DNA from: Chromatiaceae bacterium
Lineage (GTDB): Bacteria; Pseudomonadota; Gammaproteobacteria; Chromatiales; Chromatiaceae
Direction of reading: 5' to 3'
Length of the DNA stretch: 64,000 bases
NCBI GenBank assembly: GCA_019356535.1
Contig: CP037918.1
Coordinates: 620,001 to 684,000, forward strand
Part shown: piece by piece, positions 7,056 to 47,584 of the stretch
Position numbering within the stretch: position 1 is the first letter of the stretch
How the letters are laid out: each line of letters opens with the position of its first letter
Position numbers and translations under genes: made by a program
The notes under the pieces: generated by a model
What the model was told of the DNA's origin: nothing
Database searches by the model: none
The model's input: only the letters and a program-made list of their open reading frames with translations

Positions 7056-7088
7056 AAAAAAAACCCTGCCGCGGTCCGTGCGGCAGGG
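7056..7088 (-). terminator. Terminator on the minus strand after the porin
   Basis: The stem CCCTGCCGC / GCGGCAGGG (7064-7088) is followed on the minus strand by seven T. It is oriented to end transcription coming from the porin/chemoreceptor genes. On the plus strand no T-run follows. Confidence 0.7.
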
Positions 7089-7247
7089 CGATGTGTCGCC
7101 GGCTCGGTTGGCAAACCCAGTGGTCCTTCAATGGTCTTCCTGACCAAGTGTCTTCCCTGAAAGTCCCTATCAGGCGACGGTGTCATTGTGCCGCGATTCG
7201 TCCTATCGCACATGACGCCATTGACGACAAATGATGTAGGAATTTTC

Positions 7248-8357
7248 CTACAGGAGTGTCAATCGGTAGTTGATGAAGGCCCGGGTGTTGTTACCGTCCG
7301 GGCCCATGTCGCTGTGGACCAAGTCGAAATGCAGGTTCTCCGAGAGAGAATAACCGGCCCACAGGTCCCATTCGTCGCCCACTCCCTGGTCGAAATCCAC
7401 GTGGCGCACGCCCAGGCTCAGGCGGTCGATCCCATGGTATTCCGCGCCCAGAGCAAGGGCGCGGATGCGCGGGGTCCCGTCGATGGTGTTCTGGTCGCAG
7501 GAGGTGAAGAAGGGGCCGCCGCCGTAACCGTTGCTCACGCTGCCGCTGCCGCTGACCCGGTTGTAGTTGCCCGACAGGGTGAAGTCGTCGAGTGTGTAGG
7601 CCACGGAGAGGCCCCAGGCGTGGGCGCTCTGGTTGGCTGCCTTGTCCTGCTGGCGGGTCCATTGCCACCTCAGGTGCAGATTGTCGATCGGGTCGCCGCC
7701 GGCCTCGAGATAGAAGATGTCGGTGCCATCCGGCTGGCGGTAATACCAGGCCTGAGCGTCCCAGTGGGTCGCGCTGCGATTCACCCCGAGCAGGGTCAGG
7801 CCACGCTTGCCGTTGATGCGCGTGAACTTCTCCTGGCGAGCGTCCACCCCCGCCCAGCGGCGCAGGTGGGCCAGGGTGAATTCCCAGTCCTCGAAGGTGT
7901 TATTGCTGAGCACGACCCCTTCGAAGGTGTTGGGGATCATGCCGATGTCGTCGGTATCGGCGAAGGGGGTGTCGATCTCCTGGCGGCCGATGCGCAGACG
8001 GGTCTCTCCCAGATGGCCTTCCACCCAGAGCTGGCCGAAGACGGCGTAGCCCTTGCCGTTGGGGCCGCCGGCGGAATCGAGGAACAGCGGGTCGTCATTC
8101 ATGCCGCCGACAGGTGTGGTGGCATAAAGGGTGGAGCCGGCGCGCAGGTTTCGCCACGCCGGTGTCGTGCCATCCAGGCGGGCGCCGACGGACAGGGATT
8201 CCACGGTGTTGCCTGTGCCATTGTCGGTGGCGGTGTAACCTAGGCGCAGCTCGCTGGAGAGTGCCCCCGGGGGCTGCATGGCGCAACCGCAGCCGAGCGG
8301 GCCGGCGCCAATGAGTAGCAAGGTCCATGATGGGGCTTTGCGGTACGCCTTGTGCAT
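7248..8357 (-). CDS. OprD-like outer-membrane porin
   Basis: This is a 369-residue predicted beta-barrel with a basic, hydrophobic signal sequence (MHKAYRKAPSWTLLLIGAG). Alternating amphipathic strands follow, and the C-terminus NTRAFINYRLTLL suits an outer-membrane insertion signal. The RIGRQEIDTPFADTDD... PNTFEGVVLSN stretch is typical of OprD-type substrate-selective channels. The start at 8357 was chosen because it lies two bases after the stop of the chemoreceptor gene (TGATAATG), implying coupling. A longer frame would run into the chemoreceptor. The substrate is unknown. The pairing with a chemoreceptor suggests the channel admits the sensed compound (inference). Confidence 0.75.
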   Translation of the reverse strand: MHKAYRKAPSWTLLLIGAGPLGCGCAMQPPGALSSELRLGYTATDNGTGNTVESLSVGARLDGTTPAWRNLRAGSTLYATTPVGGMNDDPLFLDSAGGPNGKGYAVFGQLWVEGHLGETRLRIGRQEIDTPFADTDDIGMIPNTFEGVVLSNNTFEDWEFTLAHLRRWAGVDARQEKFTRINGKRGLTLLGVNRSATHWDAQAWYYRQPDGTDIFYLEAGGDPIDNLHLRWQWTRQQDKAANQSAHAWGLSVAYTLDDFTLSGNYNRVSGSGSVSNGYGGGPFFTSCDQNTIDGTPRIRALALGAEYHGIDRLSLGVRHVDFDQGVGDEWDLWAGYSLSENLHFDLVHSDMGPDGNNTRAFINYRLTLL

Positions 8358-13576: not shown

Positions 13577-14044
13577 ATGAGACGTTTCCTGTGGGTGGCG
13601 CTGGTAGTGGCGCTGATCGATCAGGTCAGCAAGTACTGGATTCTCGGGCATTTTCGTGAATACGAGGTGCTCACCGTCTGGCCTGTGTTCAATCTGACCC
13701 TGGTCTACAACCAGGGGGCGGCTTTCAGTTTCCTGGCCGATGCCGGGGGCTGGCAGCACTACCTGTTCGTCGGGCTGGCGCTGGTGGTCTCCGTACTGCT
13801 GGTGGTGTGGTTGTGGCGCCTGCCGCCGGAGCGGCGACTCGAGGCCTGGGGGTTGTCGCTGGTGCTCGGTGGGGCTCTGGGCAATCTGGTCGATCGCCTA
13901 GTGCATGGCCGGGTGGTGGATTTCTTGCAGTGGCACTGGGAGGAGCGCTATTTCCCTTCGTTCAATCTGGCGGACAGTGCCATCACCCTGGGGGTGATCC
14001 TGTTGCTGATCGATGCCCTGCGTGGCCAGCCTGATGTCAGATGA
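13577..14044 (+). CDS. lspA: Lipoprotein signal peptidase II
   Basis: This 155-residue inner-membrane aspartyl peptidase cleaves prolipoprotein signal peptides. Four membrane helices are visible. The catalytic aspartates lie in GNLVDRLVHGRVVDF and in FNLADSAITLG, and the conserved YNQGAAFSFL is near residue 45. A strong GGAGGGGGG precedes the ATG. The gene normally follows ileS; here it lies between murJ and ribF. Its last codons overlap a possible GacA box. Confidence 0.95.
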   Translation: MRRFLWVALVVALIDQVSKYWILGHFREYEVLTVWPVFNLTLVYNQGAAFSFLADAGGWQHYLFVGLALVVSVLLVVWLWRLPPERRLEAWGLSLVLGGALGNLVDRLVHGRVVDFLQWHWEERYFPSFNLADSAITLGVILLLIDALRGQPDVR

Positions 14045-14052
14045 TTCCTACA
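14035..14052 (+). promoter_or_regulatory. Candidate GacA/UvrY box
   Basis: TGTCAG-N6-CCTACA is an interrupted palindrome with one mismatch per half from the known TGTAAG-N6-CTTACA upstream element. It sits about 64 bases before the likely start of the candidate Rsm-like RNA. It overlaps the end of lspA. Confidence 0.45.
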
Positions 14053-14107
14053 CGGTTTGTCGCCATTCGCCGATGTATAGAGAGCGGCCGCGCCCCATAA
14101 TGCACTT

Positions 14108-14223
14108 ACCGCTGCAGGGATGGAGGCCGGCAAGGGATCGCCGGCGCAGGGATGCCCTATGTCAGGGATGGATCGAACAACCGGCGGTGGCGCCTGCCCC
14201 CAGGGAGGGGAGCAGGCTTTTTT
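14108..14223 (+). ncRNA. Candidate Rsm/Csr-type CsrA-sequestering RNA
   Basis: This is an intergenic segment of about 116 bases between lspA and ribF that ends in a strong terminator. It carries seven GGA triplets, most as A-GGGA: at 14118-14120, 14122-14124, 14135-14137, 14150-14152, 14166-14168, 14170-14172 and 14204-14206. One GGGA sits in the loop of a perfect hairpin (GCCGGC 14126-14131, loop AAGGGATC, GCCGGC 14140-14145). Another sits in the terminator loop. This spacing and loop display match RsmX/Y/Z and CsrB/C RNAs, which titrate CsrA/RsmA. A CATAAT -10-like box lies at 14096-14101, and a possible GacA box is upstream. The 5' end is inferred. Confidence 0.55.
14192..14223 (+). terminator. 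Strong terminator upstream of ribF
   Basis: GCCTGC-CCCC pairs with GGGG-a-GCAGGC around the loop AGGGA and is followed by six T. It ends the candidate RNA and probably also murJ-lspA read-through. Confidence 0.9.
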
Positions 14224-14266
14224 ATTGCCTGTCGTTTGCCAGTGCCGCCGGCGAGGGGCTTTCCGA

Positions 14267-14272
14267 TATAAT
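14267..14272 (+). promoter_or_regulatory. -10 box for ribF-ileS
   Basis: A perfect TATAAT lies about 30 bases before the ribF start and after the upstream terminator. No convincing -35 element is seen at the right distance. Confidence 0.5.
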
Positions 14273-14303
14273 CTGACGCTTGTTTTCGAGAATCGGAACG
14301 GGT

Positions 14304-15263
14304 GTGCAACTCATTCGCGGGCAACACAATCTGCGCGATGTTCACCGGGGCTGCGTGGCGACCATCGGCAATTTTGATGGTGTGCACCGAGGTCACCAGG
14401 CGGTGTTCGAGGCCCTGCGTGCGCGTGCCGCAGAGCACGCTCTGCCTTCGCTGGTGATCACCTTCGAGCCGCACCCGCTGGAGTATTTCCGGCCCGAAGA
14501 GGCGCCGGCGCGCCTGATGCGCACCCGCGAGAAGCTTGAGCACATCCGCGCCGCCGGCATCGACCGGGTGTTGCTGTTGCGCTTCGATCAGGACCTGGCG
14601 CTGTTGTCGGCCGAGGATTTCATCCAGGATTACCTGGTGGATGCGCTGGGCGTGCGCCACCTCTATGTAGGGGACGACTTCCGCTTCGGTCACCGGCGTA
14701 CCGGCGATTTCGCGTTGCTGGCGGCAGCGGGCGAGCAGCATGGTTTTGCCGTGGAGAGCCTGGAGACGGTCAGTGACGGCGGTGGCCGGATCAGCAGTAC
14801 GCGTATCCGCGAGGCACTGGCGGTCGGAGACCTGGCCACCGTGCGCCGTTGTCTGGGGCGTGACTACACGGTCAGTGGCCGGGTGGCGCACGGCCACAAG
14901 CGTGGGCGCCGCATCGGTTTCCCGACGCTGAACGTGGGGCTGGTGAGACAGCGCAGTCCGGTGCGCGGGGTGTTCGCGGTGCGCGTCGCGGGGCTCGGTG
15001 ACGACCTGCTGCCCGGCGTAGCCAATGTCGGCAACCGGCCCACCCTGGAAGGCGATGATCGCTTCCTGCTCGAGGTGCACCTGTTTGATTTCGACCGCGA
15101 GGTCTATGGCGAGCAAGTCACCGTGCATTTCATCGAACGTATCCGTGACGAGAAGAAATTCGACTCTTTCGATCAGCTGCGTGAGCAGATTGCGCAGGAT
15201 GCGCAACGCGCCCGTGAACTGCTGGTCGGCGACTCCTCCCCTTGCATCACCAACCGGGCATGA
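14304..15263 (+). CDS. ribF: Bifunctional riboflavin kinase / FAD synthetase
   Basis: This 319-residue enzyme makes FMN and then FAD. The FAD-synthetase domain has [17 protein letters not shown] near residue 23 and SSTRIREAL near 165. The riboflavin-kinase domain has [11 protein letters not shown] and the PxLAN-like [16 protein letters not shown] start (14304) giving [10 protein letters not shown] was preferred over the upstream TTG because it matches the family N-terminus and follows GGAACG. The stop overlaps the ileS start as ATGA. Confidence 0.95.
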
Positions 15264-46642: not shown

Positions 46643-47584
46643 ATGGCGGGAATTCTCGAAGGCGTTGATTTGCGCACTCAACTGGCTGGGCACAACCGCC
46701 TGGAGCTGTTGCTGTTTCGCCTCGGAGGCAAGCAGCGTTACGGCATCAACGTGTTCAAGGTGCAGGAGGTCATTCACTGCCCGCCACTGACGCGGGTGCC
46801 ACAGGCGCATCCGGTGGTCAAGGGTATTGCCAACATGCGTGGCAACACCATTACGATCATGGATCTGTCGATGGCCATCGGTGGACCGCCGCTGGAAGAC
46901 TACGAGCACAAGTTTACCGTCATCACCGAGTACAACCGGCGTGTGCAGGGATTTCTGGTGGATTCGGTGGATCGCATCATCAACATGAACTGGCAGGATA
47001 TCCTGCCGCCGCCTCGTGGTGCGGCCGAGGGCACCTACATGACGGCGGTCACTCAGGTGGACGGCGAGCTGATCGAGATCATCGACGTGGAGAAGGTGCT
47101 CAAGGAGGTGATCGGTGGCCAGGAGGATGTGTCCGATGGTGTTATCGAAGAACGCATAGGCGAACAGTCGCACCATGTGCTGGTGGTCGACGATTCCAGC
47201 GTCGCGCGCAATCAGGTCACCCGGGTTCTCAAGCAGATGGGCGTGGATTACACCGCCTGCAAGGACGGGCAGGAGGCCTGGGAGCAATTACTGGCCTGGG
47301 TGGATGAAGGTCGCAATGTCGAGGATTTCCTGTCGCTGGTGATTTCGGACGTGGAGATGCCGCGCATGGACGGCTATTCGCTCACCAAGAAGATCCGTGA
47401 GCACCCGGCGCTCGAGAAGCTGCATGTCATCCTGCACACCTCGCTCAGCGGCGTGTTCAACAAGACCATGGTCGCCAAGGTTGGCGCCAATGATTTCCTT
47501 CCCAAGTGGGAACCGGATACCCTGGCGATGATCGTGCAGGAACAACTGCGCCAGCACGACCAGGCGCGTGCCGACGCGGCCTGA
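46643..47584 (+). CDS. cheV: Chemotaxis coupling protein CheV
   Basis: This 313-residue protein has an N-terminal CheW-like domain (residues 20-165, GGKQRYGINVFKVQEVI, MRGNTITIMDLSMAIGG) joined to a receiver domain. Receiver motifs are HHVLVVDDSSVARNQV near residue 173 and the phospho-accepting Asp in LVISDVEMPRMDG near 235. It links chemoreceptors to CheA and may act as a phosphate sink. It sits behind a FliA promoter and before cheR. Confidence 0.94.
   Translation: MAGILEGVDLRTQLAGHNRLELLLFRLGGKQRYGINVFKVQEVIHCPPLTRVPQAHPVVKGIANMRGNTITIMDLSMAIGGPPLEDYEHKFTVITEYNRRVQGFLVDSVDRIINMNWQDILPPPRGAAEGTYMTAVTQVDGELIEIIDVEKVLKEVIGGQEDVSDGVIEERIGEQSHHVLVVDDSSVARNQVTRVLKQMGVDYTACKDGQEAWEQLLAWVDEGRNVEDFLSLVISDVEMPRMDGYSLTKKIREHPALEKLHVILHTSLSGVFNKTMVAKVGANDFLPKWEPDTLAMIVQEQLRQHDQARADAA

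Follow-up and report, generated by a model that had tools for sequence, protein, structure and literature searches.

The intergenic region between lspA and ribF raises the question whether it encodes a regulatory RNA that sequesters CsrA under the control of GacA and, if so, how such an RNA relates to the catalogued Csr and Rsm RNAs. The window, i.e., the whole stretch of 64,000 nucleotides analysed here, had been given a first-pass annotation based on its letters, which placed an unannotated Rsm/Csr-like RNA at this position. Judged from the comparisons described below, this RNA, here called sRNA 1, is very probably a CsrA-titrating, GacA-activated RNA of the Csr/Rsm class.

A candidate sRNA gene between lspA and ribF

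By its sequence features sRNA 1 is an intergenic gene with its own predicted promoter and rho-independent terminator. The elements of the locus are the following:

13577-14044, plus strand: lspA, the upstream neighbour, outside the RNA (translation; identity as in the first-pass annotation)
14035-14052, plus strand: GacA-type box TGTCAGATGATTCCTACA, its 5' end overlapping the region of the lspA stop codon
14096-14101, plus strand: -10 element CATAAT of sRNA 1, 43 nt after the box
14104-14226, plus strand: candidate Csr/Rsm-type sRNA gene 1, predicted transcript from ~14108 to 14223, roughly 116 nt
14109-14115, plus strand: 5' arm of the closing stem P1, pairing with 14184-14190 (predicted fold, retained by most homologues)
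14126-14145, plus strand: hairpin P2 with AAGGGATC loop, GGA site B; arms 14126-14131 and 14140-14145, GCCGGC, with AGGGA in the loop
14158-14176, plus strand: short hairpin P4 around GUC-AGGGAUG-GAU, GGA site D
14192-14223, plus strand: Rho-independent terminator with AGGGA in the loop; stem 14192-14217, T-run 14218-14223
14304-15263, plus strand: ribF, next in the downstream direction, which has a -10-like TATAAT of its own at ~14267

In many Gammaproteobacteria lspA is located after ileS. Here, lspA sits between a murJ-like gene and ribF (13577-15263 of the window).

By direct count sRNA 1 contains eight GGA triplets (14118, 14122, 14135, 14150, 14166, 14170, 14204, and 14209). The first-pass annotation had given seven, a number that has to be corrected, but its statement that most of them occur as AGGGA stands, as this is the case for five of the eight (AGGGA at 14116, 14133, 14148, 14164, and 14202). 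The exact sequence CAGGGATG is found three times (14115, 14147, and 14163); it agrees with CARGGAUG, the core of the consensus RUACARGGAUGU obtained for CsrA by SELEX (PMC7652899). The other elements that had been described were all found again: a GGA in the loop of a perfect GCCGGC hairpin (the AGGGA in the loop of 14126-14145), another in the loop of a strong terminator (the AGGGA in the loop of the 14192-14217 stem), CATAAT at 14096 (read at 14096-14101), and the interrupted palindrome TGTCAG-N6-CCTACA at 14035-14052, which is two mismatches away from the GacA element TGTAAG-N6-CTTACA.

A terminator scan of the sRNA 1 region called no terminator, which is probably explained by a bulge in the stem. 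For the promoter no match to the -35 consensus was found, and therefore a sigma-70 scan called no sRNA 1 promoter.

The expectation by chance was determined with 60 first-order Markov simulations of the 64-kb window. Eight GGA in 116 nt were reached in 60/60 simulations, and a second stretch of the plus strand (47240-47378) also reaches this density but shows no AGGGA cluster. As every simulation attains such a density, the GGA count alone was dropped as evidence. Five AGGGA within 116 nt are unique to sRNA 1 on both strands of the window, and so are three CARGGATG within 116 nt; each of these was obtained in 0/60 simulations. The single-sequence folding energy of sRNA 1 is mildly better than that of shuffled sequences (z -1.05 to -1.5), and its minimum-energy fold pairs parts of some of the GGA sites. 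Since the folding energy of the single sequence is ordinary, the structural case for sRNA 1 rests on the comparison between genomes.

Conservation and covariation in the genus

The lspA-ribF RNA is present in six of the eight genus genomes (G000, G001, G003, G005, G006, and G007) and was not found in G002 and G004, which both retain other copies. Model R1, which was built from five lspA-ribF copies, scores its training members with 95-141 bits and the G001 copy, which was outside the training set, with 32 bits.

The arms of P2 vary by compensation between the genomes (GCCGGC/GCCGGC, GUCGGC/GUUGGC, CCGGAC/GUCCGG, CCGAAC/GUUCGG, and UCGGGC/GCCUGA), always with GGA in the loop. In the window the hairpin reads GCCGGC-AAGGGAUC-GCCGGC and in G007 GUCGGC-AAGGGACU-GUUGGC, while G006 has CCGGAC-AGGAG-GUCCGG and G003 has CCGAAC-AGGAG-GUUCGG. 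Equivalents of P4 are UUCAA-AGGA-UUGAA in G006 and CUCC-AGGGAUC-GGAG in a paralogue. The pairs of P2, P4 and the terminator were counted by hand placement, in which some arms came out poor for the more distant copies (G004p, G006p); automatic genus-wide alignments misplace P2 between subgroups. Wherever the hairpins of sites B, D, and E could be placed in the compared genus RNAs, their loops contain GGA, and GGA in the terminator loop is found in all RNAs compared, both of the genus type (12/12) and of the family type (11/11).

The first-pass annotation had proposed conservation of the GGA spacing in sister genomes as a check of its reading. GGA is kept in the loops of covarying hairpins, but the central GGA sites of G001 are degraded, and G002 and G004 are without a copy at this position. 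In G007 the box and the fold are poor.

The GacA-type box and the promoter

The box of sRNA 1 has the same sequence in G005, reads TGTCAGATAAATCCTACA in G006 and G003, and is degenerate in G007 and G001. Most homologues and paralogues have a -10-like hexamer (CATAAT, CATACT, GATAAT, CACAAT, and similar) ~42-44 nt downstream of the box, and in most copies the RNA model starts ~50-53 nt after the box.

In the 2.75-Mb genome only two exact TCAGATNNTTCCTACA sites are found, both upstream of GGA-rich RNAs, and the reversed pattern, used as control, gave no site. With up to two mismatches the box pattern, which was written after the sites had been seen, has four matches in the window compared to 0.14 expected. 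Exact boxes were then collected from 57 family genomes and, for a single site, from G005, and A-N-GGA was counted 45-185 nt downstream. At least three A-N-GGA in these 140 nt are carried by 14 of the 17 boxes compared to 2.5% of random stretches taken from the same loci (p ~5e-16), and 3/17 are without a GGA cluster downstream.

In G004 the box is reversed, TGTAGGAATTTTCTGACA, with its distance to the RNA unchanged, which is the expectation for the site of a two-fold symmetric regulator. Homologues in two other families, found via the family-wide model R2 described below, show the same spacing and carry either TGTAAGCCTTTGCCTACA (TGTAAG-N6-CCTACA, G037) or TGTAAGCCTAGACGTACA (TGTAAG-N6-CGTACA, G310). 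Each of these is one base away from the UvrY consensus TGTAAGNNNNNNCTTACA (PMC4682653). Because homologues outside the host family bear such near-canonical boxes, the box can be linked to GacA.

The boxes in the family showed some further arrangements. At L177, L167, and L159 up to 14 GGA in 220 nt follow downstream of the box, resembling longer CsrB-like RNAs, and at L163 (G012:C451) two exact boxes are placed in tandem, 22 bp apart, upstream of one GGA-rich RNA. At L161 and L174 the exact boxes are located upstream of apparent protein-coding starts (a short ORF, MNLVKHVTDAIKLVV..., at L161 and an ORF beginning MKPSATALILIGYQKDYF... at L174), and here GacA may act directly on targets that are not RNAs.

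Two further candidate RNAs of the Csr/Rsm class in the genome

In total the genome has three candidate RNAs of the Csr/Rsm type, none of which was previously annotated. Two of them are in the window, ~7 kb apart, and the third lies beside rpiA. The second RNA in the window was absent from the first-pass annotation. The corresponding elements are:

7056-7183, minus strand (~7183 to 7056): candidate Csr/Rsm-type sRNA gene 2, between proB and a porin-like ORF
7185-7190, minus strand: -10 element CACAAT of sRNA 2, 44 nt after the box
7235-7252, minus strand: GacA-type box upstream of sRNA 2, the perfect palindrome TGTAGGAAAATTCCTACA, with an identical box in G005
G000:C1:2676103-2676227 (L145 1501-1625), minus strand: candidate Csr/Rsm-type sRNA 3, flanked by rpiA and a porin-like gene and preceded by a box and a -10 of its own

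sRNA 2 is of the family-wide type, with closing P1 pairs GUCGCC...GGCGAC, GCCAACCGAGCC, and a terminator with an ACGGA loop. Model R2 represents this type, and its training set includes sRNA 2 of the own genome and the G001 copy, and no lspA-ribF RNA. It scores sRNA 2, as a training member, with 102 bits and held-out relatives in G002, G004, G005, and G006 with 60-94 bits, and also matches RNAs in other families. As R2, although trained without any of them, recovers two of the RNAs located between lspA and ribF, that of G006 (E 5.8e-7) and that of G003 (E 2.9e-5), the lspA-ribF type and the family-wide type are probably homologous duplicates. sRNA 3 was found by R1 (43.6 bits, E 1.3e-6), and rpiA-side RNAs of similar kind are also present in G003, G004, and G001. 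Model matches without a box or a GGA cluster were discarded as chance (e.g., L130, L134-L137, L146, L219, and L228-L232).

The hairpins and the terminator in front of ribF could also be read as a cis-acting leader or attenuator, riboswitch-like or CsrA-responsive, that controls read-through into ribF. This would fit with the terminator immediately preceding ribF in the same orientation, and through the GGA in its loop CsrA could influence termination. However, the TATAAT 3' of the sRNA 1 terminator is kept across the aligned genus members, so that ribF appears to have its own promoter, and the homologous RNAs sit beside rpiA, proB, and elsewhere, not upstream of ribF. Moreover, G002 and G004 are without an RNA in front of ribF, and neither an FMN riboswitch nor any other riboswitch was matched at sRNA 1 in Rfam. 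Given the own TATAAT of ribF and the related RNAs at unrelated places, a ribF leader is very unlikely.

Relation to known Csr and Rsm RNAs

Taken as a CsrA-titrating RNA, sRNA 1 was compared to the known members of this class. An Rfam search of sRNA 1 at E<=10 gave no match, apart from one snoRNA hit within lspA on the opposite strand that is due to chance. None of the three RNAs has an Rfam match at gathering score, RsmX, RsmY, RsmZ, CsrB, and CsrC included, and all matches at permissive E-values are chance matches to unrelated families. The RsmY model gave 21 bits on the family locus L167, below its cut-off of 57. The search with the Rfam covariance models of RsmX/Y/Z and CsrB, which the first-pass annotation had proposed as a check of its reading, thus gave no match. 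E. coli CsrB, as positive control, reached 380 bits in an Rfam search of the same kind. As CsrB is detected and yet sRNA 1 has no Rfam match, sRNA 1 belongs to the functional class by its anatomy and regulation and not by sequence family.

Like RsmX, RsmY, and RsmZ of Pseudomonas (Rfam clan CL00106), the RNAs described here are ~110-130 nt long, have several A-N-GGA in hairpin loops, are intergenic with their own terminator and a GacA-type box upstream, and occur in several copies per genome. In contrast to these, they show no detectable sequence match, their half-sites are TGTCAG/TGTAGG instead of TGTAAG, and the box centre is located ~65 nt before the predicted start. With CsrB and CsrC of Escherichia coli they share GGA repeats in loops and a UvrY-type 18-bp inverted repeat upstream. 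In E. coli csrB this repeat is TGTGAGAGATCTCTTACA, and the UvrY site is centred at -183 (PMC4682653). CsrB differs by its length of 369 nt with many more sites and by a terminator hairpin without GGA in the loop, whereas the RNAs here carry GGA there. The boxes have the 18 bp, the two-fold symmetry, and the position upstream of Csr RNAs in common with the GacA/UvrY site TGTAAG-N6-CTTACA, but differ from this consensus by the lineage form TGTCAGATNNTTCCTACA or the perfect palindrome of sRNA 2. In the open-access literature no earlier description of Csr RNAs was found for this lineage. New are an uncatalogued sequence family, the shifted form of its GacA box, and the GGA present without exception in the terminator loop, while the functional kind is already known.

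It is highly improbable that sRNA 1 is a base-pairing sRNA of the Hfq/ProQ type, or a sponge of another protein, in which the GGA repeats are incidental. GGA motifs do occur in some trans-acting RNAs, and CsrA binding alone does not account for P1 or for the GCCAACCAAGC segment conserved in the family type. However, conservation falls on the loop GGA while the letters of the stems vary, the promoter has a GacA-type box, and the three CAGGGATG cores match the CsrA consensus. A chance GGA-rich spacer or a decayed, functionless fragment can practically be dismissed: such a GGA density is by itself common at this high G+C content and the folding energy is ordinary, but place, box, spacing, covarying hairpins, and terminator are conserved in six genomes and two paralogues have the same architecture.

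The annotation of Csr RNAs is difficult because little sequence is kept. Box, promoter spacing, and GGA hairpins together provide a usable signature (R1, R2, and the box pattern) where Rfam finds nothing, and the Gac/Csr circuit of these bacteria becomes directly testable. In addition, one lineage shows the GacA site and its target RNA drifting and duplicating together.

Regulatory partners and proposed mechanism

CsrA is encoded once in the genome (MLILTRRVGETLMIGDD..., 92 bits), and the protein has both Leu4 and Arg44. The GacA candidate is a response regulator with 50% identity to E. coli UvrY, encoded just upstream of uvrC and pgsA, a neighbourhood that matches the E. coli gene order uvrY-uvrC-pgsA; it scores 275 bits, just under the NCBIfam cut-off of 280. 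A BarA-like hybrid kinase was found with 39% over residues 3-520, and its alignment with BarA also covers 667-895. This kinase, the best GacS/BarA candidate, has 620 bits compared to the NCBIfam BarA equivalog cut-off of 890.

Several independent lines support the core of the earlier reading, namely that an unannotated RNA of the Rsm/Csr kind lies here behind a GacA-type box. These are the conserved position, the covarying GGA hairpins, and the fixed distance of the box, and further the occurrence of the box in front of GGA-rich RNAs family-wide, the near-canonical boxes elsewhere, and the presence of genes for CsrA, GacA, and a GacS-like kinase.

From this we infer transcription of sRNA 1, binding of GacA, binding and sequestration of CsrA, and a downstream regulon. 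The 18-bp box at 14035-14052 is most likely the binding site of phosphorylated GacA, the UvrY orthologue with a BarA/GacS-type kinase as partner, and the bound regulator would activate a promoter that has a -10 but no good -35. The ~116-nt RNA would end at the 14192-14223 terminator and offer about five GGA sites, most of them placed in the loops of hairpins. In this way sRNA 1 may bind several CsrA dimers, by which the CsrA repression of mRNAs would be relieved. The paralogues (7056-7183 on the minus strand and the rpiA-side RNA) probably act in parallel, like RsmX/Y/Z or CsrB/C. As for the motility genes that the RNA was conjectured to tune in the first-pass annotation, flagellar FlhA is encoded in the genome.

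There is an outside chance that the host family of Gammaproteobacteria uses an uncatalogued set of Csr RNAs, invisible to Rfam, together with a lineage-shifted GacA site, and that CsrA could bind at the terminator through the site kept in the terminator loop of every copy, thereby affecting termination or stability of the RNA that antagonises it.
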